From: Clostridia bacterium
GTDB taxonomy: Bacteria; Bacillota; Clostridia; Oscillospirales; CAG-272
DNA length: 46,343 nt
Direction of reading: 5' to 3'
NCBI GenBank assembly: GCA_017463405.1
Contig: JAFTPJ010000091.1
Span: 1-46,343 of the forward strand
The notes below the pieces were generated by a model. That model searched no databases, had not been told where the DNA came from, and saw only the letters and a list, made by a program, of their open reading frames with translations. A program made the position numbers and the translations under genes. How positions within the stretch are numbered: the stretch's first letter is position 1; every line of letters begins with the position of its first letter. Shown here one piece after another: positions 6,730-23,958 of the stretch.

Positions 6730-6758
6730 TTGCAAATATGCAGGTACTATGATATAAT
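6730..6758 (+). promoter_or_regulatory. Sigma-A promoter of the subtilase / peptide-transporter block
   Basis: TTGCAA (6730-6735) and TATAAT (6753-6758) are 17 bases apart with TGA before the -10 box. It lies about 90 bases before the ATG of the giant protease. I see no comparable promoter or terminator before 17.9 kb on this strand. Confidence 0.8.
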
Positions 6759-6846
6759 AGATAGTAACTGTGCGACTTTTCTTTGAGACAGACCCGATAT
6801 ACATACGGAGCACGAAAAAACGGCAAAAAGGAAGGTAAGATTCAAA

Positions 6847-9800
6847 ATGTCGATGCAAAAGAAACGGACACGCGTGGCGGGCGGAGCGGTATTGCTGTTG
6901 CTGGTCCTTGCCATGACGGTCAGCGTATGTATCTTCCCCGGCGGAGATACATCCGATCCCTCCTCCTCTTTGATCAGCATGATCAGCGGAGATATCAACA
7001 AAAACATGACGCAGTTCCTCAACAGTTCTGTCATGTACAAGCTTCCTGACAGCGTCAAGGAGTCGGACGAGCTCTCGATCATTATTCAGACCGAGCGCGA
7101 CTCCCTTTTGGATGCATATGAGGCTGGGGACTGCTCGATGTCCTTCTCCGAGTACGTATACACCGAGGAGGCGGAAAAGGTAGAGGAGGGAATCCTTGCG
7201 GAAAAGCAAACCATTCTCGCGGCATTTGACGAAAGCGGATTCGACTATACGACGGGTGCTGACTACAAGGCGATCTTCGGTGGCTTTGAGGTCGTGATCC
7301 GTGCGGGTGACTTCGAAGCACTTTGTAAGGCGCTTGGCACACGCGGTACTGCGATTGTGGGTGAGGAATACAATCCGTGCGAGACGCAACTGGTAGAGAA
7401 TAAGGTCGACGTGTACGAGACGGGTATCTTCGACAGCTCCGATTTCGGTTATGACGGAACGGGAACGGTCGTAGCGGTCCTTGATACGGGTCTGGACTAT
7501 AACCACACCGCATTCTCGGTTGAAAATTTCACCGCGGACAGAACGAAGCTCGGTATGACCTTCTCCGACGTGGAGCAGCTGATTGCGGATACCAAGGCAA
7601 GCAAGCTGCACAGCGGTCTGACCGCATCCGACGTTTATCTGAACGAAAAGGTACCGTTCGCGTTCGACTACGCGGATTATGATCCCGATGTGTATCCGAT
7701 GACACCCTCCGCAAGTGAGCACGGAACGCACGTTGCGGGCGTGATTGCAGGCAAGGACGACGTGATTACGGGTGTTGCTCCCAATGCACAGCTGGCGATC
7801 ATGAAGATCTTTTCCGATGTTCTTTCCACCGCGCGCAGCTCCTGGATCTTAAGCGCACTGGAGGATTGCGTGGTGCTGGGTGTGGACGTCATCAATATGT
7901 CCATCGGTACGAGTTGCGGATTCAGCCGTGAATCCGACAAGGAAGCTATTTCAGGCGTGTACGACCGCATCAGAGCGACCGGCATCAGCATGGTGGTTGC
8001 GGCATCCAACAGCTTCAACTCCACCTACGGCTCCGAAAAGAACGGCAACCTCGGTCTTACCTCCAACCCCGACAGCGCTACCGTCGGCTCTCCCTCCACC
8101 TATGAGGGGGCGATGTCGGTCGCATCGGTCAGCGGTAAGAAGACACCTTACCTTTTATATAATAATACGATTATTTACTTCACCGAGTCTACCGACCGCG
8201 TGGCAGAGGAAAAGAGCTTTTACGATGACATTCTTCCCGTGGGTACGGATTCGATGGAGATTGAGTACATCACGATCCCCGGCGCGGGACGGTCTGCCGA
8301 CTACAGTGGTTTGGACGTGGCGGGTAAAATCGTGCTCGTGCGCCGCGGATCGACCACTTTTGAGGAAAAGGCGAACGTGGCACAACAAAAGGGCGCGGCG
8401 GGCATCATTATCTACAACAACGTTTCGGGTGATATCAAGATGAACGTCGGCGACGCGACGCTCGGCGTCTGCTCGATCGGGCAGGATGACGGTGAGTTGC
8501 TTGCAGAGGCGGGCTCCGGCGTGCTCAAGCTCAACCGTGCACAGACCTCGGGTCCCTTCATGTCCGACTTCTCCTCTTGGGGGCCGACACCGGACCTCGG
8601 CATCAAGCCCGAGATCACCGCACACGGCGGAGAGATCTATTCCGCAGTTCCCGGACAGGACTATGACCGTCAGTCGGGTACCTCGATGGCATCCCCGAAT
8701 GTGGCGGGTGTGACGGCATTGATCCGCCAGTACGTGACCGAAAGCTTCCCCGAAATCGCGCAGAACCAGGTGAAGGTAACGGCATTCGTCAATCAGCTGA
8801 TGATGTCTACGGCGGATATCCTCCGCAACACCAACGGACTTCCTTATGCGGTCAGAAAGCAGGGAGCAGGTTTGGTCAACCTTTCCAACGTAAAGAATAC
8901 GACCGCGTATATCCTGACCTACCGTGACGGTGCGGAAATGGATAAGACCAAGCTGGAGCTTGGTGACGATCCCGAAAGAAACGGTGTCTATACGCTGTCC
9001 TTCTCGGTCAGAAACTTCGGTACAACCGCGCTGTCCTACGATCTTTCGGCGTACGTGATGACCGAGGGCGTGAGCGATACCAAGACCAATCAGGGCGAGA
9101 CGACGGTTGACGAACTGGGTGTGATTCTTGACGGTGCGACCGTGGAAATCACCTCGCTGACGAACGCAACGAAGAACGGAATGAATCTGACTGTTGCGGC
9201 AGGGCAGACTGCTGATGTTACCGTAACGGTTACCTTGAGTGCTTCTGATAAGAAATACCTCGACGATTCCTTTGAAAACGGTATGTACGTGGAGGGCTAT
9301 GTGGTCCTTGACGCGGCGGACGAGAGTATGGTCGATTTGAGCGTGCCTTACCTCGCATTCTATGGCGACTGGACCGAGGCGCCTCTGTTTGACCTGGACT
9401 ACTATGCAACCAATAAGGACGAGTTGGACGATTCGATCGATCTGCTCGATAAGACGCTTCCCGATGCGTATGCGACGCGTCCGATCGGAAGCGTGCAGAA
9501 CGACTACGTCAGCTTCCTCGGGTCTTTCTACTTTGTACAGGATCCGACAACCAAGCAGATCGCGGCGGACAGAAAGTACGTCTCACTTTCCAATCAGGAG
9601 GGCGCGATCCACGAGTTGAGCAACGTCTGGGCAGGACTTTTGCGTAATGCCCGTAAGATTACGGTGACCATCACCGACGATGCGACTGGCGAGGTCGTGT
9701 TTGAGCGTGTCAACGAGGATATCCGTAAATCCTACGGCGACGGTGGCTCAATTTATCCCGCAGACGTCAAGATCGAATTTGACGCATATGAGCACAATCT

Positions 9801-12800
9801 GAAAAACAATACCTCCTACACCGTGCGCCTTGAGGGCGAGGTCGATTATGGAGACGGCGGTGTGAATACCAACGATAACAACGTCTTCGAGTTCCCGCTG
9901 GTGACCGACTTCGAGGCACCTGCCGTGACCGATTGCGAGTTCTACACCGAATATGACCGCTCGGCAAAGAAGACGCGTCTGTTTGCCAAGGTGGCGGTCT
10001 ACGATAACCACTATGCAATGGCTCTGCAGGTCGGTTACGTCCGCATTGACGACGATGGCACGAGCTATATGCTGGAAACCTTTGATCAGTACCTGACTCC
10101 CATTTATTCCGAAAGCAACTCCACAACCTACGTGGTGTACGAGCTGACCGATTACATCGATGACATTCGTCGCGGTGCTGTCAACAAGAACAGCTTTACC
10201 GTTGCGACCTACGACTTCGCACTGAACACTGCGACCTATGAGATCGCACTTCCCGACGATTTCGTAGGCATCTACTTCGAGGAGGAGAGCCTGACGCTCA
10301 GCCCCAACGAGATCTACACGCTCGCACCGAAGTCCTACCCGGATACCGAATGGACCGAGTTGCTGGAGTACATCTCCACGAATACGAGCGTTGCACATAT
10401 TGTCAACAACAAGCTCGTTCCCGTAGCCCCGGGTGAGACCGTCATCATTGCGCGTGATCCCGTATCCCGACAGCAGACTTCCTTTACCCTGACCGTTCTT
10501 GGCGAGGATGATGAGGGTTATGTCAGATACGACAAGCCTGTCACCGATAGCTTCGAGCTGACGGGGTACTTGACCAATAAGGCGTACTATTTCCTGTCCA
10601 CTGACGAGCGTGATCTCGGAAGCACCGGCGACGAGATGAAGTTCACGGGCGGATACTCGCTCAAGATGTTCCCGTCCGAGAGCGTGACGCTGCGCTATCG
10701 ACTCAACGCTTACTATCCGGATAACACCGAGGTCGTTGCCGTTTCGGGTAACGAAAATCTTGTCAGCGTGGAAAAGGTGAATGGTGAATGGGTCATCACC
10801 GCGAAGGCGGAGGGATATGCGTCGGTTTCCGTCAACGTATTGATGGACGGCGAGAGCACCTATTATTCGCAGTCCATCAGCATTGAGGTCAAGGATCCTT
10901 ACATTACGACAGGTCCTTCGCTGACACACTATTTCGGACTTGGCGGCAAGGTCACTATTCCGGAAACGCTGGCAATTACCGAAATCGGTCAGTTCGCATT
11001 TTCCAACTTCGATTACGTTCCGAAGGGCGAGGGCGACGAGATCTCCGAGGATGATCCTACGACGACCAAGCAGTGGTTCCTCGGTGACGATACGATCGAG
11101 GAGGTCATCATTCCCGAGGGTGTGGAGACCATAGGCTCCTATGCCTTTGCAAATTTGACTGCACTGAAAAAGGTTACGCTACCTTCCACGCTCAAGCGCA
11201 TCGACTTCGGCGCATTCTACGGATGCACATCGCTGACGCTGGTCGACGGCATTGAATATGTTAAGTTTATCAACAGAAGTGCTTTTGAGGGTTGCGCACT
11301 CAAGGATAAGATCAATCTGGAAAGTGTGGTTGCAATTGCAGACCGTGCGTTTGCAGGAAACACCAAGCTTGCCGGCATAACGCTGGGAGAGGATATCCAA
11401 TCCATCGGCGCGTACGCATTCAGCGGAAACATTGCACTCAATGAGCTGATCATTTCGTCAGAGATCGTAAAGCTTGGTCAATACGCTTTCGACAGCTGTG
11501 AATCGCTTGAAAAGCTTGCGATCAATGCGGCGGTCATTCCCACGGCGGCGTTTAACGAGTGTAAGTCTCTGTCCGAGATTACGCTCGGTAAGGATGTTGC
11601 GGTCATCGGCGAATACGCATTCAGTAATGTCAAGGCAACATCGATCAAGGTCGATCCCGCAAACCCTGTGCTCGCATCTGCGGCAGACGGTTCGTACCTG
11701 ACTAACAAGGCGGGTGACGTGCTGATATTGGCGGCCCCCGGGCTACGCGGCGAGGTTGTGATGAACGATTCCAATATCACGACGGTCGGTTCTGCGGCAT
11801 TCTCGGGCAACCTCAAGATTACATCGGTTCGCATTCCGAGCGTTACGAAGGTTTCTGCATACGCATTTGCATACTGCGAGGCACTGAAGACCGTGGAGCT
11901 GGGAGATGCGCTGACGCTGATCGGCGATTACGCATTCTACAGGACTGCGATCAATACAATTCCTTCCTTTAATTCTATTGACACCATCGGCGCTTATGCT
12001 TTTGCTCACACTAATGTCACCGAGCTCACGCTTCCTGACGGCATTACCGTAGGGGACAGTGCATTCCGTGAATGTAAGGCACTGGCGAGCGTGACGGTCG
12101 GCAACAACGTCAAGCTTGGTGCCAACGCGTTCCGTCTGGATAAAGAGACCAACTTTACCGAGATTCCCGGCTCTTATCGCGGACCGAACGACCGACTCAT
12201 TTACTATTACATTTACACCTCGCCGCTCCACTCGCTGACGATCGGTGAGAACGTCGAGATCGGCAATGGCGCATTTATGGGTGCGGCGGAGCTGGAGAGC
12301 GTGATCCTGGGCAAGGGTGCCGTGATCGGCGACAATGCCTTCTACAATGCAATCAAGCTGACGCAAATCGACCTTTCTGCTGTCCTGTCGGTCGGAAACG
12401 GTGCGTTTTCGGGTGATGTGCTGTATCTGTTCTCCGATCAGAATATGAGCGAGCCTTATATCAATGAGAACAGAGAATACGAGTACAGCTATTATGCACC
12501 TGCTTTGATGTATGTGGATTTGAGCGCGGCAACCTCCATCGGCGAGGATGCATTTGCGTTCTGTAAGCAGCTGACTACGGTGAAGCTGGGAAGCGGCATC
12601 ACCGAGATTCCCGCCCGTGCGTTCAACCGTTGCGATCGGCTGTACGAGATCAATCTCGACGGTATCAAGACGGTGCGCGAGGAGGCGTTCAGCTACACCG
12701 CATTGACAGCGGTTACACTGCCCGCTGTCGAGCAGATCGACAAATATGCTTTCGTTTACAATGATCTTCTGAATGCCGTGACGCTCGGTAAGAGCCCTGT

Positions 12801-14457
12801 GACGCTCGGTGAGGGGGCATTCTCCTACAACGAGTCGCTGGCACAGATCAATGGCTCCGAGGTGATTGCTGTTGTCGGTGATTACGCGTTCGCGTACACT
12901 GCAATTGTAAGTATCGATCTTTCGGGCGCTACCGAGATCGGCGATGCTGCATTCCTTAAGGAGGAGATGACCGCCTTTGTGGTCAAGCTTGGAGATTCCT
13001 TGGTCAAGTTGGGCGAAAATCCCTTTGCGATGTGCCGTCTGGAGGCATTCAACAGTACCGTAACCGAGGAATTTAACGGACAGACCGTTCAAAAGGAAAC
13101 CGATACGTTTGATATCAGCGAGCCCGTCAGAGTGATAGACGGTATGCTGTACCGCGTGGTTCCAAAGGGACTTGAGCTGATCTCCTATGCGGGAGATGCG
13201 ACTGCTGTGACGGTCGCGGACGGTACGGTGCGTATTTCCGCGCAGGCGTTTGCAGGCTCGGATGTGGCGCATGTGATTCTGCCTACAAGCTTGGTTTCCG
13301 TCGGACACAAGGCTTTCTACGCTTGTGATAAGCTCTCCACAGTGGTCTTCCAAAGCTATGAGGCTCCGGTCCTCGAGGAGGAATACGATTACAGCTATTG
13401 GCTCTCTGCGGAGAACCTTCCCGCAACGGGCGAGTATCAGTATCAGGATGCTTACACGGGCGATACGGTGATCTACGAGGGGCTCGGAATCGTTCCGTAC
13501 TTCATGTGGAACGCAACCGATACGCCTACGGTGATCTACTATGGCGCAAACTTCTCGGACTACATCGGACACGTGGAGAACACAATGGTGATGGTAGCTC
13601 CTTCGAACGGCTTGTTCTACGATTCCTTCATCTACGGTCAGTATTTCAAGGTGAACGTAGCGGGTTCGGTTGCGATGGATGCGACGACACAGGCGGCGAT
13701 CGACGCGATCAACGCATTGCCCGAAAGCGTTACGCTGTCTGATAAGGCGCTGGTCGAGGCGGCACGAGCGGCTTACGATAAGATCTCGTCTTTCGAGCAA
13801 AGAGCACTCGTGAGCAATCTTTCGGTACTGCTTGCAGCGGAGCAACGCATCAGCGACCTGGAGTATATCCAGAACGAAAATAGCGGTACCGTCAATCCCG
13901 ACGCCCCCAATGCCGGCGATACGCCCGATGGCGGCGACAACCCCGACGGTGATACGGCTGGGGATCGCACCGAGGAGCAGACCGCAGACGTGATGCTGAT
14001 CGCGATAATCGCGCTCGGTGCGGCACTGATTGTGACAATTGTGATCATTGTCGTGATTCTGATCGCTGGCAGAAAGGAAAGACGCATTGCCAAGTCCGCA
14101 CAGGCAGGAGCTGTGAGTGTAGTATCCGTGACGGATGCTCCCGTAGTGCCTGCGGATTCCGTAACTAAGAAGTCCGCAAAGTCGGATGCAAAGGAAAGTG
14201 CACAGGTCCGTAAGCGCGCGTCGCATCAGCCCAGTGCAAAGGGCAGGGTCACGGCGCAGACGACGGTGATCCGTCCGATCAAGCCCACGCCGAGCACACC
14301 GATCGATCCGTCGCAGCTTTCCGTGAACAATACGGTGAGCGACGCCAAGACGGAACAGAAGAACCGTGCGATCAAAACAGTGGCGGCTCTTCTTGCGGGC
14401 TTTACAGCCGGCAAGATGGTAAGCAAGCGTTCCTCATCCCGCAGACGCAGAAAATGA
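6847..14457 (+). CDS. Giant cell-surface subtilisin-like protease with BspA-type leucine-rich repeats
   Basis: A 2,536-residue S8 serine protease. An N-terminal hydrophobic signal (about 10-30) is followed by a propeptide-like region. The catalytic triad is visible: Asp213 (VAVLDTGLDYNH), His292 (SEHGTHVAGVIAG) and Ser613 (SGTSMASPNVAG). A PA domain (about 480-560, IVLVRRGSTTFEEKA) interrupts the catalytic domain, as in C5a-peptidase and lactocepin relatives. Fn3-like and beta-sandwich regions follow, then two Big-type Ig modules (about 1141-1215 and 1275-1355). A long array of LRR_5/BspA repeats (about 1365-2190; pattern IG-x-YAF-x-x-C-x-x-L-x-x-(I/V)-x-L) comes next, and a helical FIVAR-like segment (about 2275-2345). 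The protein ends with one transmembrane helix (about 2382-2408) and a basic tail of about 128 residues ending SSSRRRRK. There is no LPXTG motif. The first ATG is chosen because AGGAAGG precedes it. It probably digests proteins at the surface, with the repeats binding substrate or matrix. Confidence 0.93.
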   Translation: MSMQKKRTRVAGGAVLLLLVLAMTVSVCIFPGGDTSDPSSSLISMISGDINKNMTQFLNSSVMYKLPDSVKESDELSIIIQTERDSLLDAYEAGDCSMSFSEYVYTEEAEKVEEGILAEKQTILAAFDESGFDYTTGADYKAIFGGFEVVIRAGDFEALCKALGTRGTAIVGEEYNPCETQLVENKVDVYETGIFDSSDFGYDGTGTVVAVLDTGLDYNHTAFSVENFTADRTKLGMTFSDVEQLIADTKASKLHSGLTASDVYLNEKVPFAFDYADYDPDVYPMTPSASEHGTHVAGVIAGKDDVITGVAPNAQLAIMKIFSDVLSTARSSWILSALEDCVVLGVDVINMSIGTSCGFSRESDKEAISGVYDRIRATGISMVVAASNSFNSTYGSEKNGNLGLTSNPDSATVGSPSTYEGAMSVASVSGKKTPYLLYNNTIIYFTESTDRVAEEKSFYDDILPVGTDSMEIEYITIPGAGRSADYSGLDVAGKIVLVRRGSTTFEEKANVAQQKGAAGIIIYNNVSGDIKMNVGDATLGVCSIGQDDGELLAEAGSGVLKLNRAQTSGPFMSDFSSWGPTPDLGIKPEITAHGGEIYSAVPGQDYDRQSGTSMASPNVAGVTALIRQYVTESFPEIAQNQVKVTAFVNQLMMSTADILRNTNGLPYAVRKQGAGLVNLSNVKNTTAYILTYRDGAEMDKTKLELGDDPERNGVYTLSFSVRNFGTTALSYDLSAYVMTEGVSDTKTNQGETTVDELGVILDGATVEITSLTNATKNGMNLTVAAGQTADVTVTVTLSASDKKYLDDSFENGMYVEGYVVLDAADESMVDLSVPYLAFYGDWTEAPLFDLDYYATNKDELDDSIDLLDKTLPDAYATRPIGSVQNDYVSFLGSFYFVQDPTTKQIAADRKYVSLSNQEGAIHELSNVWAGLLRNARKITVTITDDATGEVVFERVNEDIRKSYGDGGSIYPADVKIEFDAYEHNLKNNTSYTVRLEGEVDYGDGGVNTNDNNVFEFPLVTDFEAPAVTDCEFYTEYDRSAKKTRLFAKVAVYDNHYAMALQVGYVRIDDDGTSYMLETFDQYLTPIYSESNSTTYVVYELTDYIDDIRRGAVNKNSFTVATYDFALNTATYEIALPDDFVGIYFEEESLTLSPNEIYTLAPKSYPDTEWTELLEYISTNTSVAHIVNNKLVPVAPGETVIIARDPVSRQQTSFTLTVLGEDDEGYVRYDKPVTDSFELTGYLTNKAYYFLSTDERDLGSTGDEMKFTGGYSLKMFPSESVTLRYRLNAYYPDNTEVVAVSGNENLVSVEKVNGEWVITAKAEGYASVSVNVLMDGESTYYSQSISIEVKDPYITTGPSLTHYFGLGGKVTIPETLAITEIGQFAFSNFDYVPKGEGDEISEDDPTTTKQWFLGDDTIEEVIIPEGVETIGSYAFANLTALKKVTLPSTLKRIDFGAFYGCTSLTLVDGIEYVKFINRSAFEGCALKDKINLESVVAIADRAFAGNTKLAGITLGEDIQSIGAYAFSGNIALNELIISSEIVKLGQYAFDSCESLEKLAINAAVIPTAAFNECKSLSEITLGKDVAVIGEYAFSNVKATSIKVDPANPVLASAADGSYLTNKAGDVLILAAPGLRGEVVMNDSNITTVGSAAFSGNLKITSVRIPSVTKVSAYAFAYCEALKTVELGDALTLIGDYAFYRTAINTIPSFNSIDTIGAYAFAHTNVTELTLPDGITVGDSAFRECKALASVTVGNNVKLGANAFRLDKETNFTEIPGSYRGPNDRLIYYYIYTSPLHSLTIGENVEIGNGAFMGAAELESVILGKGAVIGDNAFYNAIKLTQIDLSAVLSVGNGAFSGDVLYLFSDQNMSEPYINENREYEYSYYAPALMYVDLSAATSIGEDAFAFCKQLTTVKLGSGITEIPARAFNRCDRLYEINLDGIKTVREEAFSYTALTAVTLPAVEQIDKYAFVYNDLLNAVTLGKSPVTLGEGAFSYNESLAQINGSEVIAVVGDYAFAYTAIVSIDLSGATEIGDAAFLKEEMTAFVVKLGDSLVKLGENPFAMCRLEAFNSTVTEEFNGQTVQKETDTFDISEPVRVIDGMLYRVVPKGLELISYAGDATAVTVADGTVRISAQAFAGSDVAHVILPTSLVSVGHKAFYACDKLSTVVFQSYEAPVLEEEYDYSYWLSAENLPATGEYQYQDAYTGDTVIYEGLGIVPYFMWNATDTPTVIYYGANFSDYIGHVENTMVMVAPSNGLFYDSFIYGQYFKVNVAGSVAMDATTQAAIDAINALPESVTLSDKALVEAARAAYDKISSFEQRALVSNLSVLLAAEQRISDLEYIQNENSGTVNPDAPNAGDTPDGGDNPDGDTAGDRTEEQTADVMLIAIIALGAALIVTIVIIVVILIAGRKERRIAKSAQAGAVSVVSVTDAPVVPADSVTKKSAKSDAKESAQVRKRASHQPSAKGRVTAQTTVIRPIKPTPSTPIDPSQLSVNNTVSDAKTEQKNRAIKTVAALLAGFTAGKMVSKRSSSRRRRK

Positions 14458-14486: not shown

Positions 14487-15293
14487 ATGAAAAAAAGAAA
14501 TAAGATCAAACTGATTGCTGTCCTGCTCATGGCGTTTGCCATGAGCTTGACAGCCTGTGCGGGCGGCGGTATTTACGACAAGCTCGCGGATACGGGCTAC
14601 ACCGTTAGAGTCCGCTTTGATGCGGGCGGAGCGGTCGTCAACGAAACGCCCAACACCACAATCGTGGAGGTGTACGGCGAATCGGATACTGTGACGCGTG
14701 ACGGAAAGACCGGTATCGCGCTTCTCGCGCCGGACAATACGTTGCGCGGTGCCGATGCGACCTTCAAGCTTGCGATGACCGACGGCGAGAGCAACTTTTT
14801 CCAGGCGGGCTGGTACACCTCCCGCAACCCGCGCACCGACAGCGCGGGCAATCCCGTGGATGCCTATGGTGTTCCCACCGCCGAGTCGGGCAGGGAGCAG
14901 GCTTACGTTTACAGCGGAAAATGGGACTTTTCCAAGGACTTGATCGATCCCGCAGAATATGCGGGCGAGGAGCTGACGCTCTACGCCGCATGGATTCCTT
15001 TCTACAAGTATGAATTTTATCTGCAGGATGGTGAGGGCTTTACGCTTCTTTCGAGCATGAGTCGCATCGACGTGCGCACTCCGGAATGGGATGCAGACGA
15101 CGGGGAATATAAAATGAACGATTTTCCGGATCTGCCGGATGGAAAGATTTTCGAGGGCGCCTATTTTGACGAGGCGATGACCCAATCGGTACCCGAGCGG
15201 ATCGACGGTGACAATACCTTCGTCGATTTTGAAAAGGGTATTCAAACGTCTTACGTGATCAGAATCTACATCGCCGCAGAAGATGCGGAATAA
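14487..15293 (+). CDS. Small lipoprotein with an InlB B-repeat-like module
   Basis: A 268-residue lipoprotein with lipobox LTAC (Cys24). The frame extends to an ATG overlapping the protease stop (14454), but GGAG precedes the ATG at 14487, which begins a clean lipoprotein signal. After the Cys, YTVRVRFDAGG leads into a region ending LTLYAAWIP. The FDAGG...LYAAW pattern is that of the Listeria-Bacteroides (InlB B) repeat, here with a long insertion that contains GWYTSRNPRTDSAGNPVDAYG. A second, beta-rich part follows. It lies 30 bases after the protease gene and 52 before the binding-protein gene, with no terminator on either side. It may be a surface accessory of the protease or transporter; this is inferred from position only. 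Confidence 0.85.
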   Translation: MKKRNKIKLIAVLLMAFAMSLTACAGGGIYDKLADTGYTVRVRFDAGGAVVNETPNTTIVEVYGESDTVTRDGKTGIALLAPDNTLRGADATFKLAMTDGESNFFQAGWYTSRNPRTDSAGNPVDAYGVPTAESGREQAYVYSGKWDFSKDLIDPAEYAGEELTLYAAWIPFYKYEFYLQDGEGFTLLSSMSRIDVRTPEWDADDGEYKMNDFPDLPDGKIFEGAYFDEAMTQSVPERIDGDNTFVDFEKGIQTSYVIRIYIAAEDAE

Positions 15294-15345: not shown

Positions 15346-17925
15346 ATGAAAAAAAGAATTTTATGTACGCTTCTGTGCCTTGTGATGCTGTTCAGTACTG
15401 TCCTGATGGCAGGCTGTTCCACTCCCGAGGGACAGGGGGCGACGACGAAACCCGATGCGTTCGTTGTGATGGTTGACCAACTCGACGGACTCTTTAACCC
15501 CTTCTTCTCAACCAGTGCCAACGACAGCACCATCGTTTCCATGACACAGATCGGCATGCTCACCACGGGTTACGACGGCACCGATGTGACCGTTGCTTAC
15601 GGTGATGATGAGGCAGTTGTGGTCAAGGACTACAGCATCGTGCGCAACGAAGCGGATGACACGACCGTTTATACTTTTGTTATCAAGAACGGTATCACCT
15701 TCTCCGACGGTCACCCTCTGACCATTGAGGATGTCCTCTTTAACATGTACGTTTATCTGGATCCCGTATACACGGGCTCCTCCACCATGTATTCCACCGA
15801 CATTGTCGGTCTGAAGGACTACAGAAACCAGTCTCGCGATTCGGGCACGAGCAATTCCGACGATGCGTTGAATACTGCAGCTGTCAGCCTTGCGAACGAC
15901 CGTATCAAGGAGCTGATCAACCTTTACAAGCAGGTTGGCGATCCGATGAACACGGGCAACTACAGCGCAACCTACGAGACGATGGTCGAGGCGATCAAGA
16001 CGCATGCACTCTCTGTCGGCTATAAAAAGGCTGTTTCCGAGAATCCCGATTCCGTGACCTACGAGCAGCTGTTGGCAGACTACGAGCTGACTCTGAAGCT
16101 CTTCCGTGAGGAGCTCGAAAGAGATTACACGGGCGCGAAGGAGTCCTACACCGAAGAGCCCTACAAGTCCCATTCCGAATTTGCGGATGAAGTGTTCTGC
16201 TTCATGTTCCTCGAGGGCTTTGTTGAGGTCGAATATGCACGTGACGAGAACGGTAAGTTCGATACCACCAAGATTGAGAATCTGACGCCTTCCTACAACA
16301 CGGGCGTTGTAAAGGATAAGGAGTCCGCAATCGAATACGTCTACACCCAGAAGGTAGAGAACGCGCTGACCGAGATTCTGACCGGTTGGGCGACCGCTAC
16401 TGAATTGCTGACACAGTACACTGCAAAGGCAAAGGAGGTCATCATCTCCGAAAAGACCAAGGGCGGTCTTGTGGTAGAGAATATCTCCGGTATCGTTTCT
16501 CTCGGTCACACCACCGATGAGACGAGCGTGACCATCGGAAGCAACACCTATGTGGTGGCACAGGAGCACAATGCGAACGGTACGCCGAAGAACGCGAACG
16601 AGTACGACGTTCTGCAGGTGACCATCAACGGTGTTGACCCCAAGGCGATATGGAACTTCGCGTTCGCGGTTGCACCCCAGCATTACTATGCACCCGGCTA
16701 CGAGGTGGATATTGCCAACAACAAGTTTGGTGTGGATTACGCGTCCTTCTCCTTCATGAGAGACGTGATCCAGTCCACCAAGAACGTCAAGCTGCCGATG
16801 GGTGCGGGCGCTTACAAGGTGACCGACCGTAACGACAGCGATGCCCCCAACGAAAACGATTTCTTCGTCAACAACGTTGTTTACTTCAAGGCGAACGACA
16901 AGTTTATGATGGGCACGCCCAAGATTGAAAAGCTCCGTTACCGTGTGGTCAGCACATCCAACGCAATTGCCGCACTCAAGGAGGGATCGGTTCACTACAT
17001 TTCTCCCCAGTACACGAAGTACAATATTGAACAGCTCAACGGAATGGCTGCAAGCGGCGTTGAGACGCTGAAGAGTGATCAGCTCGGCTACGGTTACATT
17101 GGTATCAATGCGGGCAAGGTGCCGGATATCAACATTCGTAAGGCGATTATGTGCGCAATGGACACCTCGTTGGCATTGAGTTACTACGAGGCAGGAACCG
17201 CAGAGAACATCTACTGGTCCATGTCCACGGTCAGCTGGGCGTATCCGAAGGATGAGCTTGGCAACAATGAGCGTCTGAACGGGCACGATTATCCTGCGCT
17301 GAACTTTAGCAAGGAGACCGCAAAGGTCAAGATTCAGCAGTACATGGATGCAGCAAACGTATCTGCAGGTGACTCCAAGCTCAAGCTGAAGTTTACCATT
17401 GCGGGTGCGGACCTGACCGACCACCCGACCTACCTGACTTTCCGTGCCGCAGCTGACCTGCTCAACGAGATGGGGTGGGATATTGAGGTTGTTCCGGATA
17501 CGCAGGCACTGACCAAGTTGACCACCGGCTCACTGGCAGTCTGGGCGGCAGCATGGGGAAGCACCGTTGACCCCGATATGTATCAGGTTTACCACAAGAA
17601 CTCCACCGCAACCAGCGTCCTGGCTTGGGGTTACCGCGAGATTCTCGCGTCTCCCGGACAGTACGTAGAGGAGACCAAGATTCTCAACAAGCTCAGCGAC
17701 GTTATCGACGAGGCACGTGAGACTGAGGATCGCGAGGAGCGTACCGAGCTTTATAAGGAGGCAATGGGATACGTGCTGGATCTTGCGATCGAGCTTCCCG
17801 TTTACCAGAGAGACGTGCTGTATGCATACGATTCCACGGTCATCAAGAAGGAGTCCATGCCCTCGGCAGTCAACCCCTTCACCTCTCCACTTGATCACAT
17901 CTGGGAGATCGAATTCGCAGGTTGA
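15346..17925 (+). CDS. Peptide ABC transporter substrate-binding lipoprotein (SBP_bac_5 family)
   Basis: An 859-residue extracytoplasmic binding lipoprotein of the OppA/DppA family, with lipobox MAGC (Cys24). Family marks include the early FNPFFS segment, YTFVIKNGITFSDGHPLTIEDVLF, the later FFVNNVVYF and IRKAIMCAMD, and the C-terminal ELPVYQRDVLYAYD. It captures oligopeptides for the permease genes that follow. At 859 residues it is much longer than the usual 500-600: a helical, charged insertion lies at about residues 165-400 (INLYKQ, VGYKKAVSENPDS, LTEILTGWATATELL). AGGAGG lies just before the ATG. A hairpin after the stop may keep this gene more strongly expressed than the membrane parts. 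Confidence 0.93.
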   Translation: MKKRILCTLLCLVMLFSTVLMAGCSTPEGQGATTKPDAFVVMVDQLDGLFNPFFSTSANDSTIVSMTQIGMLTTGYDGTDVTVAYGDDEAVVVKDYSIVRNEADDTTVYTFVIKNGITFSDGHPLTIEDVLFNMYVYLDPVYTGSSTMYSTDIVGLKDYRNQSRDSGTSNSDDALNTAAVSLANDRIKELINLYKQVGDPMNTGNYSATYETMVEAIKTHALSVGYKKAVSENPDSVTYEQLLADYELTLKLFREELERDYTGAKESYTEEPYKSHSEFADEVFCFMFLEGFVEVEYARDENGKFDTTKIENLTPSYNTGVVKDKESAIEYVYTQKVENALTEILTGWATATELLTQYTAKAKEVIISEKTKGGLVVENISGIVSLGHTTDETSVTIGSNTYVVAQEHNANGTPKNANEYDVLQVTINGVDPKAIWNFAFAVAPQHYYAPGYEVDIANNKFGVDYASFSFMRDVIQSTKNVKLPMGAGAYKVTDRNDSDAPNENDFFVNNVVYFKANDKFMMGTPKIEKLRYRVVSTSNAIAALKEGSVHYISPQYTKYNIEQLNGMAASGVETLKSDQLGYGYIGINAGKVPDINIRKAIMCAMDTSLALSYYEAGTAENIYWSMSTVSWAYPKDELGNNERLNGHDYPALNFSKETAKVKIQQYMDAANVSAGDSKLKLKFTIAGADLTDHPTYLTFRAAADLLNEMGWDIEVVPDTQALTKLTTGSLAVWAAAWGSTVDPDMYQVYHKNSTATSVLAWGYREILASPGQYVEETKILNKLSDVIDEARETEDREERTELYKEAMGYVLDLAIELPVYQRDVLYAYDSTVIKKESMPSAVNPFTSPLDHIWEIEFAG

Positions 17926-17939
17926 TCGGAAGACAAATA

Positions 17940-17969
17940 CGAAATGCCGCAAGCATTTGCGGCATTTCG
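17940..17969 (+). terminator. Intercistronic hairpin after the binding-protein gene
   Basis: A 12-base stem, CGAAATGCCGCA / TGCGGCATTTCG (17940-17951, 17958-17969), is followed by a weak T-rich stretch (CATTTGATTTT). It fits a partial terminator or mRNA-protecting hairpin, common between a highly expressed binding-protein gene and its permease genes. Confidence 0.65.
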
Positions 17970-17996
17970 CCCATTCATTTGATTTTGGAGTAAATT

Positions 17997-18959
17997 ATGT
18001 TAAAATACATATTGAAAAGATTGCTTCTGTCGGTACTGATCCTGTTCGGTGTTTCCCTGATCCTATTTATCCTGATCCAGAATATGCCCTCGAGTTTCGC
18101 TGAAAATAAGATCAACGAAATGAATGCGGGCGGTGCGATCGTGGACCAGGCGACCAAGGACGCCATTATGGAAATGTACGATATGAGCTACGGAGAATGG
18201 CTCCGCCGTATCGTGACCCTCGATTTCGGCGAGAGCTTCACACAGTCGATGCCGGTGCTGGACGTTATCAAGAGAGATATGTTTGTCTCCTTCCTTGTCG
18301 CGGCAATTGCAACGATCTTTGAGTTTATGATCGCGATTCCGCTTGGTATCACGGCGGCAACGCACCAGTATTCCTTCCGCGACTATTTTGTGACCGTACT
18401 GGTTATGATCGGTATTTCGCTCCCGGCATTTTTCTTTGGACAGGTGCTCAAGGGCGTGTTTGCAGTAGAGCTTGGGTGGCTACCGTCATCGGGACTCGGG
18501 GACGCGACGCAATCGGCGACGGGAATTGCGTACGTGCTGGAATATGTTCGCTATCTCGTGCTTCCGATTGCGACCGTCGTCATTTTGAGTATCGGCGGAA
18601 GAATGCGTATGACCCGCACGAATATGCTCGAAGTCCTCAATTCCGACTACATCCGTACCGCGAGAGCCAAGGGGCTCAAGGAGCGCGTGGTTATCTACAA
18701 GCATGCGTTCCGCAACACGATGATTCCGCTGGTGACGAGTCTTGCGGGATTGTTGCCTTCGCTGTTCTCGGGTGCGATCATCACCGAGCAGATTTTCGAC
18801 CTGCCCGGTATCGGTAATACCGCGTACAAAGCCATGATTGTTGGCGACGTGCCCGTTATTATGGGCTATAATATGTTTCTGGCATTGTTGAGTATCATCG
18901 GCGTGCTGCTGGCAGACCTGATGTATGCAGTGGTTGACCCCCGTGTCAAGCTGAAGTAA
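17997..18959 (+). CDS. Peptide ABC transporter permease (OppB/DppB type)
   Basis: A 320-residue inner membrane subunit. The N-terminal helix MLKYILKRLLLSVLILFGVSL and the following IQNMPSS are typical of OppB/DppB. Five further hydrophobic segments are seen, and the cytoplasmic EAA loop (YIRTARAKGLKERVVIYKHAFRN) contacts the ATPases. The C-terminus ends in ADLMYAVVDPRVKLK, the usual tail of this family. GGAG precedes the ATG. It pairs with the permease gene nine bases downstream to form the membrane channel for peptides. Confidence 0.95.
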   Translation: MLKYILKRLLLSVLILFGVSLILFILIQNMPSSFAENKINEMNAGGAIVDQATKDAIMEMYDMSYGEWLRRIVTLDFGESFTQSMPVLDVIKRDMFVSFLVAAIATIFEFMIAIPLGITAATHQYSFRDYFVTVLVMIGISLPAFFFGQVLKGVFAVELGWLPSSGLGDATQSATGIAYVLEYVRYLVLPIATVVILSIGGRMRMTRTNMLEVLNSDYIRTARAKGLKERVVIYKHAFRNTMIPLVTSLAGLLPSLFSGAIITEQIFDLPGIGNTAYKAMIVGDVPVIMGYNMFLALLSIIGVLLADLMYAVVDPRVKLK

Positions 18960-18968: not shown

Positions 18969-20078
18969 ATGAAAGAGCGTAATGAAATGAATGAAGCCGC
19001 AGCGGTAGAGGATATCGAAGCGGTTGAGGCGCGTGGGGCAGAGGAGCTTGAGACTCCCTTGGATCGCAACGTGCGCCTGATGTCGCCGACCAGAATGGTC
19101 CTGCGTCGCTTTTTCCGTTCCAAACTCAGCGTGGTGGGGCTTATCATGTTGCTGGCGGTGTTCCTGTTCTGCTTTGTAGGACCTCTGATCTGGACGCAGT
19201 GGGGTGAGATTGAGGTCGATGACACTCCTATGGTGGAGTATTCGACCAAGACCTATGAGTACACGCTGGATGGAAAAACGCATACCGTTTATCAAGTGAT
19301 CGAAAAGATCGAAAAGGAGAACGCGCTCGCTCCCATGAGCGCGGAGCATCCACTTGGAACCGACAAGACCGGATACGACGTACTGGCGCGTTTGATGTAC
19401 GGCGGTCAGATTTCTCTGATGATCGGATTTTTGTCGGTGTTCATCATCACGCTGCTCGGTGTGATTCTCGGCGGTATCGCGGGATACTTTGGCGGTATCG
19501 TGGACAACGTGATCATGCGTATCTGCGACGTGCTGATGTGCATTCCCGGATTTCCCATCATGCTGGTGTTCGGTACTGTGCTGACCGCTTTTGGTGAGCT
19601 GGAAAACCCGAACGCGATTCAGGCGCTGATGGGGGACTCCCGTTACCGTATTTATTTTCTGATGGCGTTTCTGACGCTGTTCTCATGGCCCGGCACGGCA
19701 CGGCTTGTGCGCGGTCAGATTCTCTCCTTGCGTGAGCAGGAGTACATGGTTGCGGCAGAGGCAATGGGATATTCCACTGCCCGCAAGATCTTCAAGCATC
19801 TTGTCCCAAACGTCATGCCCCAGCTGATTGTTTCTATGACCCTCAGTCTTGGCAGTATGATCCTGTACGAGGCGTCGCTGTCCTTCCTGAACATGGGTGT
19901 ACAGCCGCCGTATGCTGCATGGGGTACAATGATCAACGCCGCGAGCGATCTCAATATTCTCGAAAACTACATCAACATCTGGGCGCCCCCCGGTATCTGC
20001 ATTGTGATTGCCGTGCTCGGCTTTAACTTTGTGGGTGACGGTCTGCGTGACGCGCTCGATCCCAAGTCAAGGAGGTAA
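18969..20078 (+). CDS. Peptide ABC transporter permease (OppC/DppC type)
   Basis: A 369-residue second membrane subunit. An acidic N-terminal tail is followed by [19 protein letters not shown], the OppC_N-type first helix. An extracytoplasmic stretch carries the family motif [20 protein letters not shown]. The remaining helices contain an EAA loop ([24 protein letters not shown]). The end, [14 protein letters not shown], is the standard OppC terminus. The outer segment between helix 1 and the HPLGTD motif is rather long (about 70 residues). The ATG follows GGAG by four bases. Confidence 0.95.
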
Positions 20079-20083
20079 TGGCA

Positions 20084-21355
20084 ATGGCAAAGACGAACAA
20101 AAGCAACCATTATCTTTCGGGCAGAGAGATCCGTGCGATTGCAAAGGAAAATCGCAAGATTACCAAGGCGCTGGAGAAGAGAAAGCACAGACGTGCGAAG
20201 GAAGAAGAATTTGTTTCCGCAATGAAGGATGACAGTAACATCCTTGAGATCGAGGATCTGCATACCTATTTTTACACCGATCAGGGTGTGGTCAAGGCGG
20301 TCAACGGTGTGTCCTTCGAGGTGCCGCAGAATGCCACGGTGGGTATCGTGGGTGAGTCGGGCTGCGGAAAGAGTGTGACCAGCATGTCGGTTATGCAGCT
20401 GGTGCAGGGACCTGCGGGACAGATTGTTTCGGGAAATATCCGCTTCAAGGCGTGTGATTACCGCCGCGACAAAAAGGGAAATCCCGTGGCGGTGAAGCAG
20501 GCGGACGGAAGCCGTACGTTTGAAACCGAGGAAAAAGTCTATGACATCGCGAATATGCCCGTGAGCGAGATTTTCCGCATTCGCGGCAGACAGATCGCGA
20601 TGATCTTCCAGGAGCCGATGACCTCGCTCAACCCTGTGTTTACCATCGGAAATCAGCTGGATGAGGTCACCTTCATCCACGTTCCCGGGGCGACGAAGGA
20701 GATGGCAAAGGCAAAATCGATGGAGATGCTCAATCTTGTCGGCATTGCCGCTCCCGAGCGCGTGTATAAATCCTATCCGCACGAGTTGTCGGGCGGTATG
20801 AGACAGCGTGTGATGATCGCGATGGCACTGGCGTGCAACCCGCGCCTGATTATTGCCGACGAGCCGACCACCGCGCTGGACGTAACCATTCAGGCGCAGA
20901 TTCTGGATCTGTTCCGCGATCTGAAGACCAAGATCAACGGTTCAATTCTGCTGATTACCCACGACCTCGGCGTCGTGGCGGAGATGGCAGATTACGTTGT
21001 GGTGATGTATGCAGGTCGCGTGATCGAAAAGGGAACGGTGCGCGAGATCTTCCACAATCCGTTGCACCCGTACACGGAGGGCTTGCAGAAGTCCAAGCCG
21101 ACGATGGATTCGGACAGCGATTCGCTGTTCAACATTCCCGGCAACGTCCCGAACCCCGTGAATATGCCCGACCATTGCTACTTCAAGGAACGGTGCGCAA
21201 AATGTACGAAGAAGTGCAGCGGCGATTATCCGAAGATGATTCAGGTCAGCCCGACGCACTTTGTTGCGTGCCATCTGTACGATAACGAAACGCGATTTGG
21301 CAAGGCTCTGGTCAATCGGGCAGTGCAGCGCCGTTTGGAAAAGGAAGGGGTGTAA
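20084..21355 (+). CDS. Peptide ABC transporter ATP-binding protein (OppD/DppD type)
   Basis: A 423-residue ATPase that powers import. Walker A is GESGCGKS (from residue 90), the ABC signature LSGGMRQR (near 235), Walker [13 protein letters not shown], and the switch His is in LLITHDLG. The oligopeptide C-terminal region carries a Cys cluster ([10 protein letters not shown] ... FVACHLY), as in OppD/DppD, where it may bind an iron-sulfur cluster. An ATG at 20078 overlaps the previous stop, but it is only two bases from GGAGG; the in-frame ATG at 20084 is at eight bases and is preferred. The protein has an odd extension of about 55 basic residues before the ATPase fold ([16 protein letters not shown]-like). 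Confidence 0.94.
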
Positions 21356-21357: not shown

Positions 21358-22362
21358 ATGGCAGACGAAGCAATGAAACAGGATTCCGAATATTTACTGG
21401 AGGTGCGCCATCTGCGCAAGTGCTTTCCGCTTCAGAAGAATCTGCTCGGCAAGGTACAAAAGGAGCTGGTTGCCGTTGACGATGTCTCTTTTACGGTAAA
21501 GGCAGGCGAGACACTCGGCATCGTGGGTGAGTCCGGCTGCGGAAAGACCACGATGGGACGTACGATCTTAAAGCTCCACGAGCCAAGCGGCGGACAGATC
21601 ATTTTCAACGGTGAGGACATCACCAATTACAAAAATGCGCAGATGCGTCATCTGCGTACCGATATGCAGATCATTTTCCAGGATCCGTATTCCTCGCTGC
21701 CGCCCCGTGCGACGGTAGGAGAGATTCTGTCCGAGCCTGTCAAGGTGCATCATATTGTGCCTGCGAGCGAGGTTAAGGACTACGTCATCGACCTGATGGA
21801 GCGGTGCGGACTGCGCGATTACTACTACGAGCGATACCCGCACGAATTCTCGGGCGGACAGCGTCAGCGTATTTGTATTGCGCGCGCACTGTCGGTCAAT
21901 CCGAAGCTGGTCATTTGCGACGAGCCCGTATCGGCGCTTGACGTATCGATTCAGGCGCAGATCATCAATCTGCTTAAGGATTTGCAGAACTCCATGAACC
22001 TGACCTATCTGTTCATTTCCCACGACCTGTCGGTGGTCAAATTTATCTCCGATAAGGTGGGCGTGATGTATCTGGGTGCGATGATGGAGTTCGGTGACAA
22101 AAAGGACATTTTTGCCAACCCGATTCATCCGTACACGCAGGCGCTGTTCTCGGCAATCCCGAATCCGAATCCCGACGTCAAGATGAACCGCATCGTGCTG
22201 GGCGGCGACATTCCGTCTCCCGCCAATCCTCCCAAGGGCTGTCGCTTCCACACGCGTTGCCCGTACGCGACCGAAAAGTGCCGCCACTGTACTCCCGCAT
22301 ACCGCGAGTACGAAAAGGGACATTTCGCCGCTTGCCATCTTCTTGATGGGGAAGAGGCGTGA
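21358..22362 (+). CDS. Peptide ABC transporter ATP-binding protein (OppF/DppF type)
   Basis: A 334-residue second ATPase. It has the typical start [12 protein letters not shown], Walker [10 protein letters not shown], the Q-loop segment [15 protein letters not shown], signature FSGGQRQR, Walker [13 protein letters not shown], and His in FISHDLS. The C-terminal part has [18 protein letters not shown] ... HFAACHLL, the oligo_HPY Cys cluster of OppF. It starts two bases after the stop of the other ATPase gene, with a G-rich ribosome binding site inside that gene. The two ATPases should form a heterodimer beneath the permeases. Confidence 0.95.
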
Positions 22363-22364
22363 GC

Positions 22365-22628
22365 ATGGGACAGAAGAAGAAAAAGGAGAAGCCGATTTAC
22401 GTCGACGACGGCTCGACCGTAGCCGATATGTCCTCGCTGACAGGAAAACCATCCGCGGGGGAGGGCAAGGGCGAGCGGAACGGGAGCGGCAAGCGCTCCG
22501 TTCCGCGCTCGGCAATGCGCGATCAGCTCCGCACGTTCACCGACGCGCAGAAGATGATGTTTTTGCCGATGCTCGCAGTGCTCGGCATTCTCGCACTTGC
22601 GTTTTTGATCATCTATTTTCTGCTGTAA
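22365..22628 (+). CDS. Small single-pass membrane protein at the end of the peptide-transporter operon
   Basis: An 87-residue protein with a Lys-rich N-terminus (MGQKKKKEKP), a polar Gly/Ser/Lys-rich middle, and one C-terminal transmembrane helix (about 68-87). It looks tail-anchored with most of the chain in the cytoplasm. A GTG at 22359 overlaps the ATPase stop, but AGAGG is better placed for the ATG at 22365. I do not recognise a family. Its position as last gene of the transporter operon suggests a small accessory or assembly factor, which is an inference. Confidence 0.8.
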   Translation: MGQKKKKEKPIYVDDGSTVADMSSLTGKPSAGEGKGERNGSGKRSVPRSAMRDQLRTFTDAQKMMFLPMLAVLGILALAFLIIYFLL

Positions 22629-22633: not shown

Positions 22634-22676
22634 AAAAGGGGTGAGTCGAATGCGAAAATCGCATTCGACTCACCCC
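22634..22676 (-). terminator. Long perfect palindrome: terminator of the aminopeptidase gene
   Basis: An 18-base perfect stem with an AAA loop (22638-22655, 22659-22676; arms begin GGGGTGAGTCGAATGCGA). On the minus strand it is followed by TTTTATG. It lies about 55 bases past the aminopeptidase stop, and on the plus strand it sits nine bases after the last transporter gene. It could therefore act in both directions. Confidence 0.8.
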
Positions 22677-22704
22677 GCCGTTTTTGCGGAAGTATTTACG
22701 CTTT

Positions 22705-22733
22705 GGCTGCGCAAATGGCGCAGCCCTTTTTTT
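22705..22733 (+). terminator. Intrinsic terminator of the peptide-transporter operon
   Basis: GGCTGCGC / GCGCAGCC (22705-22712, 22718-22725) with a five-base loop is followed by CTTTTTTT. The T-run overlaps the stop codon of the convergent aminopeptidase gene. Confidence 0.85.
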
Positions 22734-23958
22734 AAAATGCCCAGTTGCCGTTTTCGAAAATCGGCACGCGCCGTCCGTCACGGGTGACGGCGGTGATGGA
22801 AAGATCGGCGGTGCCAATCATGAAATCGACGTGGATCATCGAATCGTTGATGCCCTTGTCGTAGCATTCCTGCATGGTGTACCGGTCGTAGTCCCTGATG
22901 ACGTTTGTGAAGCCGTGACCGAGCGCCAGGTGGCACGCAGCGTTCTCGTCAAACAGCGTGTTGTAGAACAGAATTCCCGAGTTGCAGATCGGGCTGTCGT
23001 ACGGCACCAGGGCGCACTCACCGAGATACGCAGCACCCTCGTCCATCGAGATCATCTCCTGCAGGAGTGCGTCACCCACATCGGCGTGTGCCTCGACGAC
23101 CTTGCCGCCCTCAAAGCGCATCCGGAAGTTGTCGATCAGCTCACTGCGGTACGACAGCGGCTTGGACGAGTAGACGATACCGTCTGCCACGCCCTTTTTC
23201 GGAGAGATAAAGACCTCCTCGGACGGAATATTCGGGTTGAACACGGTGCCCGAGCCCTGGGTTGCCTCGGCGCCGCCCATAAAGAGCGCGTCCTCAATCA
23301 TACCCACACGCAGGTCGGTGCCGTTCGCCGCGCGATACTCCAGCGTCTCGATGCCGAGGCTGTTGAGGTACGCACAGCGCGCCTCCAGATCCTTGTTGTG
23401 CGCCTCCCATGCCGCCATCGGATCGCCGTCGGCGCGCGAAGTGTAGAGAATTGCCTCCCACAGCTTTTCGATTGCCTGATTTTTCGAAAGCCCGGGGAAC
23501 ACCTTTTTCGCCCATGCCGCACCGGGAACGGCAGCGATGCACCACTGATATTTGTTTTCCATCGCGTCACGGTAGGGTTTGCGGATTTTGTATTTCGCCT
23601 GCGCCGCCTTGGACATTTTTGCCTGATTGACACCCTTGAGTCCGTCGGGATCGTCGGATTCGAGCCAGATGGTCACGGGGAGCGTTTCGGACTCGTGCTT
23701 GAGCTTGGCAACCTCCCAATCCTCCATCGTAGAGAGGACTTTGAGGGTTGCTTTTTTCTGCGTGAGCTTGGTGACGCCAAGGTCGCTCCATTCCACGCGC
23801 ACCATGCGCGCGCCGCATGCGTAGCATTCCTCCGTAAGCATACGGACAAATTCGGGCTGATCGAGCGAGGCGCGGATGATGACATCCTGCCCCTTTTGCA
23901 CGTTGCCGCCCGCCCGCGCGATCAGCCGCGCGTAATTTCTGAGTACTGTTTTTTTCAT
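22732..23958 (-). CDS. M29-family metallo-aminopeptidase
   Basis: A 408-residue cytoplasmic enzyme of the AmpS / thermophilic aminopeptidase family (M29), which removes N-terminal residues from peptides using two metal ions. Family motifs are present in order: NIPSEEVFISP (metal Glu), GAAYLGECALVP (second Glu), HLALGHGF (His), and MIHVDFMIG (His and Asp). The length matches the family (about 410). The ATG at 23958 is preferred over one 39 bases upstream, because AGGA lies seven bases before it. The gene faces the peptide-transporter operon, and its product could digest imported peptides. Confidence 0.95.
   Translation of the reverse strand: MKKTVLRNYARLIARAGGNVQKGQDVIIRASLDQPEFVRMLTEECYACGARMVRVEWSDLGVTKLTQKKATLKVLSTMEDWEVAKLKHESETLPVTIWLESDDPDGLKGVNQAKMSKAAQAKYKIRKPYRDAMENKYQWCIAAVPGAAWAKKVFPGLSKNQAIEKLWEAILYTSRADGDPMAAWEAHNKDLEARCAYLNSLGIETLEYRAANGTDLRVGMIEDALFMGGAEATQGSGTVFNPNIPSEEVFISPKKGVADGIVYSSKPLSYRSELIDNFRMRFEGGKVVEAHADVGDALLQEMISMDEGAAYLGECALVPYDSPICNSGILFYNTLFDENAACHLALGHGFTNVIRDYDRYTMQECYDKGINDSMIHVDFMIGTADLSITAVTRDGRRVPIFENGNWAF

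Follow-up and report, generated by a model that had tools for sequence, protein, structure and literature searches.

The window analyzed here is a 46,343-nt stretch of DNA from a Clostridia bacterium (contig JAFTPJ010000091.1 of assembly GCA_017463405.1, positions 1 to 46,343 of the forward strand). Its plus strand carries a block of genes that encode a surface subtilase, a lipoprotein, an importer of the OppABCDF type, and a small protein with a single transmembrane (TM) segment. The linkage of the subtilase with the Opp importer is real and conserved, and the block is probably a protein-scavenging operon of uncultured gut Clostridia that would combine the cutting of proteins at the cell surface with peptide import. 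With the function predicted from sequence, the best reading is that of a protease of the C5a-peptidase/lactocepin type tied to its own Opp4-like importer. Pfam searches and open reading frames (ORFs) confirmed all the genes named in the initial annotation, on the plus strand as described, with an M29 aminopeptidase gene facing them. From its interpretation, the single transcription unit and the subtilase-Opp linkage can be retained and the role of the aminopeptidase cannot; a redox arm, made up of a redoxin lipoprotein cluster and a membrane protein with 4Fe-4S and thioredoxin domains, and a set of gene fusions had been missed.

Conservation of the linkage was the check that the initial annotation had proposed. 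The loci compared are the best 80 of 310 OppA relatives found by scanning a single genome of each species; they were thus chosen for OppA similarity, not subtilase similarity, and the record titles of 61 of them name a herbivore gut sample. The subtilase gene precedes oppA by 5 to 10 kb, in the same orientation, in all 71 loci that have more than 8.7 kb upstream, and the B, C, D, and F genes follow in this order in all 67 loci that have more than 5.5 kb downstream of oppA. Three samples not selected by OppA comprise 98 genomes of relatives, 295 genomes of the order, and 398 genomes of the phylum, of which few belong to this order. In the order sample, the same 7 genomes, from two families, have strong matches to both the subtilase (at least 625 bits; next, 460) and OppA (at least 974 bits; next, 283), and the other 288 have neither. 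Both genes are on one contig in six of these genomes; in the seventh, G276, both contigs end within the lipoprotein gene. Among the 98 relatives (thresholds of at least 512 bits for the subtilase and at least 324 bits for OppA), 12 encode both proteins, 1 (G026) OppA only, 2 (G018 and G024) the subtilase only, and 83 neither; OppA of G010 was counted from two contig-edge fragments, and G010, G018, G024, and G026 are 69 to 78% complete. The arrangement varies in a deeper lineage: G029 has the subtilase gene before the opp genes, in G021 and G034 it comes immediately 3′ of oppF, and in G052 a small TM gene stands between oppF and it. In the phylum sample, the only strong subtilase match is in the window's own genome (G000), followed by G072 with 352 bits. 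The distance matrices of OppA and the subtilase are correlated (Mantel r of 0.91, with none of 2,000 permutations as high), and their trees have 31 of 69 splits in common, compared with a mean of 0.3 and a maximum of 3 in 200 label shuffles.

Several observations speak against the proposed reading or limit it. All the loci come from metagenome assemblies; in G032, of the deeper lineage, the subtilase gene is ∼30 kb away from that of OppA; in locus L095, the subtilase ORF ends at 948 amino acids (aa). Some OppA splits conflict with equally supported subtilase splits, 9 of 35 at support of at least 0.95 and 17 of 47 at support of at least 0.8. Because the genomes and lineages are related, Fisher values for the co-occurrence are descriptive and overstate independence. 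Two loci contain other ORFs that are shorter than their counterparts, namely, oppD of L031 (276 aa) and oppF of L095 (205 aa); these, and the short subtilase ORF of L095, may reflect frameshifts, assembly errors, or decay. Linkage to Opp as a property of every such subtilase was considered and rejected: distant subtilases (∼307 to 460 bits) without a strong OppA adjoining are encoded in G138, G330, G167, G246, G072, and G200 and as a second copy in G314. In G072 and G246, only a distant OppA was detected, on other contigs.

The genes from the subtilase through the small TM protein are predicted to form one transcription unit, as the initial annotation had proposed. The promoter-like site that it had placed before the subtilase gene (positions 6730 to 6758, plus strand; TTGCAA-17-TATAAT, matching at 10 of 12 positions, with a TG before the second hexamer) was recovered, as was the terminator-like hairpin with a following T run that would close the unit (22705 to 22725, plus strand). 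Each of these is near chance expectation in the window taken alone (20 promoter-like sites found in the region versus 12.2 expected, and 24 terminator-like sites versus 18.0 expected), so the signals were checked across relatives, with gene starts set to the longest ORF, a promoter score of at least 10 of 12 within 250 bp upstream, and a hairpin within 120 nt downstream. Promoter-like sites proved to cluster before the subtilase gene, where the best one reached the threshold in 30 of 71 loci, as opposed to 0 to 7 of 65 to 78 before the other genes and 2 of 72 controls inside the subtilase gene. Terminator-like hairpins are similarly concentrated 3′ of the small TM gene (52 of 65) and are found after the other genes in 0 to 5 of 71 to 77 loci, with the exception of oppA (22 of 78). 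Median gaps between successive genes range from −19.5 to 34 bases in these relatives. On the plus strand, the window has a second promoter-like site before the subtilase gene (6677 to 6704), a further hairpin after the small TM gene (22638 to 22676), and, absent from the initial annotation, a hairpin between oppA and oppB (17939 to 17970), which is a candidate attenuator or processing site. A hairpin located 3′ of a binding-protein gene usually increases its output relative to the permeases.

The lipoprotein (positions 14487, an ATG, to 15293, plus strand; 268 aa) contains a divergent InlB-B/Flg_new-like domain. Its homologues were identified in 78 of the 80 loci, and the contigs of the remaining two begin shortly upstream of oppA. 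Most of the relatives carry an additional C-terminal half that resembles GLUG/β-helix sequences; this half is missing from the proteins of the window and locus L031, and L032 has a part of it. In Pfam searches of 24 of the relatives' lipoproteins at E values of ≤0.1, Flg_new was recognized in 12, Peptidase_M26_N in 6, and GLUG in 1. A subtilase ORF was obtained from 72 of the 80 loci, and the fusion count, from which L095 was dropped, covers the 71 loci with a full-length subtilase and a called lipoprotein. In 8 of these, the subtilase and the lipoprotein form a single open frame of 2,922 to 3,017 aa in which the lipoprotein signal peptide has turned into a membrane helix. A lipobox-like motif is present in 60 of 64 separate lipoproteins, and none of the 8 fusions has a Cys in the 25 residues preceding the shared domain; the fusion in L070 retains one Cys at the inner start of the helix, away from the lipobox place. 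This loss of the lipobox argues against assembly error and in favor of the subtilase and the lipoprotein acting together at the membrane, which suggests that they form a working pair. Parsimony requires 5 changes for the 8 fused loci when the OppA tree is used and 7 with the subtilase tree, compared with 7.8 for random placement. These counts speak against the fusion as a single event and point to repeated fusion or fission, a conclusion that, given the weak gene trees, should not be pressed.

The last gene of the block (positions 22365 to 22628, plus strand) encodes an 87-aa protein that has one C-terminal TM segment, as judged by hydropathy, and belongs to no Pfam or NCBIfam family. Its relatives contain an IDDGRTIADMS-like motif, and a small TM gene of this kind is found downstream of oppA in 65 of the 67 loci with more than 5.5 kb beyond oppA. 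It is also present in 14 of 22 loci with a distant OppA, some of them cut by contig ends; 6 of the 22 have a homologue of the lipoprotein just upstream, and none has a subtilase match in the stretch covered. Loci L118 to L120, with no subtilase in view, contain the genes for the lipoprotein, OppABCDF, and the small TM protein. These two groups of loci indicate that the importer and the small TM protein probably predate the protease, which was added later. The small TM protein is possibly an unrecognized subunit of the Opp system.

Upstream of the subtilase gene and divergent from it, the minus strand of the window carries a gene for a 949-aa redoxin/TlpA-like lipoprotein (positions 3677 to 6526; Pfam Redoxin, 3e-17, and also AhpC-TSA) with the motif NFWYSTCSPC. 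Two more lipoproteins are encoded on the same strand. The first (1402 to 3585) is homologous to the product of the gene after the redoxin gene in relatives (tblastn, 132 bits); the second (628 to 1260) is of the CarboxypepD_reg type and is a weak homologue (57 bits) of a 145-aa lipoprotein of the redoxin cluster. The N-terminal half of the 1402-3585 protein contains Cys-rich repeats in tandem (type, CTHESTAWGITKAATCTEVGTRQKQCTSC). In some genomes, the redoxin gene is located behind the small TM gene in the same orientation, together with homologues of the 1402-3585 and, weakly, 628-1260 genes and with a gene for a second redoxin lipoprotein of roughly 284 aa. In other genomes, the gene that faces the subtilase is one of a pair. 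This pair encodes a 238-aa TM protein and a membrane protein that combines Fer4_5 repeats and 4Fe-4S motifs with a thioredoxin-like domain at the C terminus. Instances of the latter fusion are L164:1542-3038, L116:7037-8560, and contig C126 of G000, with a partner TM protein of ∼240 aa. A neighbor of the redoxin cluster in G314 (L164:3109-3933) has a dockerin type I domain at its C-terminal end (Pfam, 8e-15).

The redox arm probably belongs with the block. The redoxin lipoprotein is encoded in 7 of the 295 genomes of the order (E values of ≤1e-20), which are six of the strong subtilase genomes and G340, where a contig of 5.4 kb stops within the subtilase match (330 bits) and no strong OppA was detected. 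The 4Fe-4S/thioredoxin protein matches in 35 of the 295 genomes (E values of ≤1e-40), and only 7 of the matches span the whole protein with its thioredoxin part; the 7 genomes in question are those that encode the redoxin lipoprotein, with the 4Fe-4S protein being in two pieces in G315 and interrupted by one stop in G000. Among the 98 relatives, the redoxin lipoprotein was found in 8 (E values of ≤1e-30), all with the subtilase, and the 4Fe-4S/thioredoxin protein in 7 (E values of ≤1e-100), which also encode the subtilase or, in the case of G026, this OppA. Since the two queries cross-match through their thioredoxin domains, only a count of any redox-arm gene was used for the loci: such a gene lies upstream of the subtilase in 53 of the 70 loci with at least 500 bp there.

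An alternative is that the arm is a separate extracellular system, involved in peroxide defense or in folding surface proteins of the cell itself, and is simply a neighbor of the block. The AhpC-TSA match would fit peroxide defense, and six subtilase genomes, G018, G021, G029, G032, G034, and G052, have no match to the redoxin (E values of ≤1e-30) or the 4Fe-4S protein (≤1e-100). Also to be weighed against a place of the arm in the block, 17 of the 70 loci lack a redox-arm gene in the ∼1 kb visible upstream, G249 has no match to the redoxin at 1e-20 or to the 4Fe-4S protein at 1e-40, and the genome of the window encodes the 4Fe-4S protein on another contig, as two tandem ORFs. The missing matches in the deeper subtilase lineage and G249 imply that the arm is not essential to the core. 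However, the two redox genes occur in an identical set of 7 of the 295 genomes, 6 of which are shared with the subtilase, and their adjacency to the block takes two arrangements. In addition, an NFWx(1-4)CxxC motif is present in 34 of 43 redoxin ORF pieces (some of the other 9 are cut short), and NFWxxxCxxC is a motif that we take to indicate the TlpA type rather than a peroxiredoxin. With evidence on both sides, a separate system appears somewhat doubtful, and the arm is here treated as a probable part of the block. Its nearest known kinds are presumably the extracytoplasmic thioredoxins of the TlpA/ResA type, with which it has in common the Redoxin fold with a CxxC motif recognized by Pfam, and the NapH-like 4Fe-4S membrane proteins, which have similar Fer4_5 repeats. 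It differs from them in that the 4Fe-4S protein is fused to thioredoxin in relatives, the redoxin domain is embedded in a 949-aa lipoprotein, and both genes are tied to a protease-importer locus. The arm may open disulfide bonds of proteins before they are cut. That would involve an outward flow of electrons, presumably to substrate disulfides; a flow in the opposite direction, oxidizing the cell's own surface proteins, is possible.

The subtilase (positions 6847 to 14457, plus strand; 2,536 aa; Pfam S8, PA, fn3_5, and LRR_5) consists of a signal peptide, an S8 domain with an inserted PA domain, an fn3_5 domain, BspA-type LRR_5 repeats, a TM segment near residues 2377 to 2395 (by hydropathy), and a long basic tail. 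The catalytic triad, Asp213, His292, and Ser613, and the oxyanion-hole Asn388 are invariant in all 72 aligned sequences, including the one from the window. The best match in PDB is the C5a peptidase 7edd (5e-67), and the same list contains 5xyr and 5xya as well as the cell-envelope proteinases 6vjb and 31mr. The S8 domain with its intact triad, the PA insert, and fn3_5 are those of the lactocepin/C5a peptidase class. Cell-envelope proteinases are marked by an LPXTG sorting signal near the C terminus; in the window protein, the last 300 aa contain no LPx[TS]G. Such a string is found within the C-terminal 250 aa in 15 of the 72 subtilase ORFs, in 14 of them in a conserved stretch at least 191 residues from the end and in the fifteenth, the fusion in L084, with no TM segment after it. 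By sequence similarity, the subtilase groups with C5a peptidase, chemokine protease C, and the cell-envelope proteinases, and its score of 275 bits against the NCBIfam model SGO_0316 (cutoff, 1,400) places it outside the SGO_0316/0317 family. The S8 domain with the PA insert and fn3_5 is common to C5a peptidase, chemokine protease C, the SGO_0316 serine peptidases, and the window protein, whereas the LRR_5 repeats and the coupling to Opp distinguish the latter.

These relationships raise the question of whether the subtilase is directed at a particular host or microbial protein, with the importer recycling the products. The top PDB matches (C5a peptidase and chemokine proteases 7edd, 5xyr, and 5xya) and the subthreshold SGO_0316 match would be in line with such a role, but 6vjb and 31mr appear in the same list, and a pure immune-evasion enzyme would not be expected to be so tightly coupled to Opp. 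A narrowly targeted protease therefore seems unlikely. Opp systems can also import signals such as pheromones, and the pairing of one protease with one importer could then serve signal maturation or sensing, with the subtilase trimming a secreted peptide and OppA importing the trimmed form. No regulator was found among the conserved genes, and short secreted peptides were not searched for; a large protease with LRR_5 repeats and a redox arm is better suited to bulk protein, which makes a signaling role distinctly improbable compared to the scavenging of proteins.

The importer comprises an OppA-like lipoprotein (positions 15346 to 17925; 859 aa; Pfam SBP_bac_5, with an insert at ∼165 to 412), the permeases OppB (17997 to 18959; BPD_transp_1) and OppC (18969 to 20078; BPD_transp_1 and OppC_N), and the ATPases OppD (20078 to 21355) and OppF (21358 to 22362), both with ABC_tran and oligo_HPY, all encoded on the plus strand. 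This clustering of a solute-binding protein, two permeases, and two ATPases is that of Opp4-type importers. The best NCBIfam models are Opp4A, Opp4B, and Opp4C, with every score below the cutoff (93.1 bits versus 650, 230.9 versus 450, and 333.8 versus 350, respectively), and the best PDB match of OppA is AppA (1xoc, 1.9e-14). By these scores, the importer is a relative rather than a member of Opp4, and its nearest transporter family is Opp4/App, from which it departs in the length of OppA (859 aa, versus a model length of 556) and the insert. A profile of the insert (residues 165 to 412) matches 9 OppA loci of subtilase genomes (L111 to L113, L115, L117, L130, and L145 to L147) and none of the 22 loci with a distant OppA and no subtilase in the stretch covered. 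It also has no match in L124, the contig-cut OppA of the subtilase genome G052, and the sequences that do not match score lower in the core as well, so the correlation may only mirror overall divergence; a role of the insert in docking the subtilase was thus not counted as evidence. The cargo most likely consists of peptides, as inferred from these family relationships. OppA is only distantly related to the solved peptide binders, which tempers that assignment, and its weak matches to the NikA and CntA models would allow other ligands, but a metal chelate or glycan as the main cargo is highly unlikely in view of the best matches to Opp4A, Opp4B/Opp4C, and AppA and the constant pairing with a protease.

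Protein scavenging by this block can be envisaged as follows. Transcription would start before the subtilase gene and end after the small TM gene, with the hairpin after oppA probably raising the output of OppA. The subtilase, anchored in the membrane by its C-terminal TM segment, would cut proteins at the cell surface, its long LRR_5 repeats binding the substrate or the surface. The lipoprotein, which is paired and sometimes fused with the subtilase, would keep the protease close to the enlarged OppA, and the peptides would enter via OppBCDF, probably with the participation of the small TM protein. The 4Fe-4S/thioredoxin membrane protein and the redoxin lipoproteins would probably send electrons outward and reduce substrate disulfides before or during cutting. 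A tentative extension, which we consider possible, is a single machine that reduces, cuts, and imports: electrons from the cytosol would pass through the 4Fe-4S/thioredoxin protein to the surface redoxins, and the subtilase, held to OppA by its partner lipoprotein, would hand over the peptides. The gene content and order, the linkage, the co-occurrence, the fusions, and the intact catalytic residues are read directly from the sequences; the physical complex, the direction of the electron flow, and the nutritional purpose are what we infer.

The subtilase linked to its own importer had been noted as an arrangement not known as a described system, and searches of an open-access library turned up no description of this locus. 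Judged by analogy, its closest functional counterpart is the lactococcal system of PrtP (lactocepin), OppDFBCA, and PepO, in which a cell-envelope protease, likewise of the S8 type and broadly of the same class, supplies an Opp importer. Lactococcal opp genes form an operon with pepO on pIL4 (PMC3138775), and lac and opp are found together on plasmids (PMC6458302); the available parts of these two papers contain nothing to the effect that prtP lies within an opp operon. In contrast to the lactococcal system, the protease, lipoprotein, and importer studied here form one predicted transcription unit, the window protease carries LRR_5 repeats and ends in a TM segment with a basic tail, a redox arm lies alongside, and no conserved peptidase was found besides the subtilase.

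The M29 aminopeptidase gene (positions 22732 to 23958, minus strand; Pfam Peptidase_M29), whose product had been proposed to finish the imported peptides, is a neighbor outside the conserved system. It was found in none of the 67 loci that extend more than 5.5 kb beyond oppA (62 of the 80 loci reach at least 3.5 kb past the last called gene), and a further search of related loci gave no match at E values of ≤1e-10, so the enzyme was rejected as a member of the system. Further along, a full-consensus σ70-type promoter (12 of 12) in the 24294-24640 region is followed by an ∼300-nt leader before a gene for a 1,021-aa protein with an N-terminal hydrophobic stretch. The leader (24328 to 24640) has no match to any Rfam family and folds only slightly better than its shuffled versions (z score of −1.59, with 6 of 100 shuffles doing as well). 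Scans of the window for tandem DNA repeats, tRNAs, and Rfam RNAs gave none. Carriage of the block by plasmids or phages was also rejected: at E values of ≤1e-5, OppA has matches in 26 plasmid records and 1 phage record, and none of these covers more than 80% of OppA. A record labeled “Bacteriophage sp.” from human feces (MT836037.1, positions 3647 to 5635) encodes an OppA relative with 29.8% identity over 62%; the record is possibly bacterial DNA.

To our knowledge, little is known about how gut anaerobes digest compact, disulfide-rich proteins or whether the cutting of proteins at the surface is physically linked to uptake the way it is in polysaccharide loci. In uncultured Clostridia, the locus described here offers a conserved set of defined genes with which both questions can be addressed gene by gene, and it flags several parts that had no name: the small membrane protein encoded beside oppF, the partner lipoprotein of the protease, and the 4Fe-4S/thioredoxin fusion. 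If the reducing, cutting, and importing parts do work as one machine, the locus would be the Gram-positive equivalent, aimed at proteins, of the polysaccharide utilization loci, with food or host proteins as its targets.

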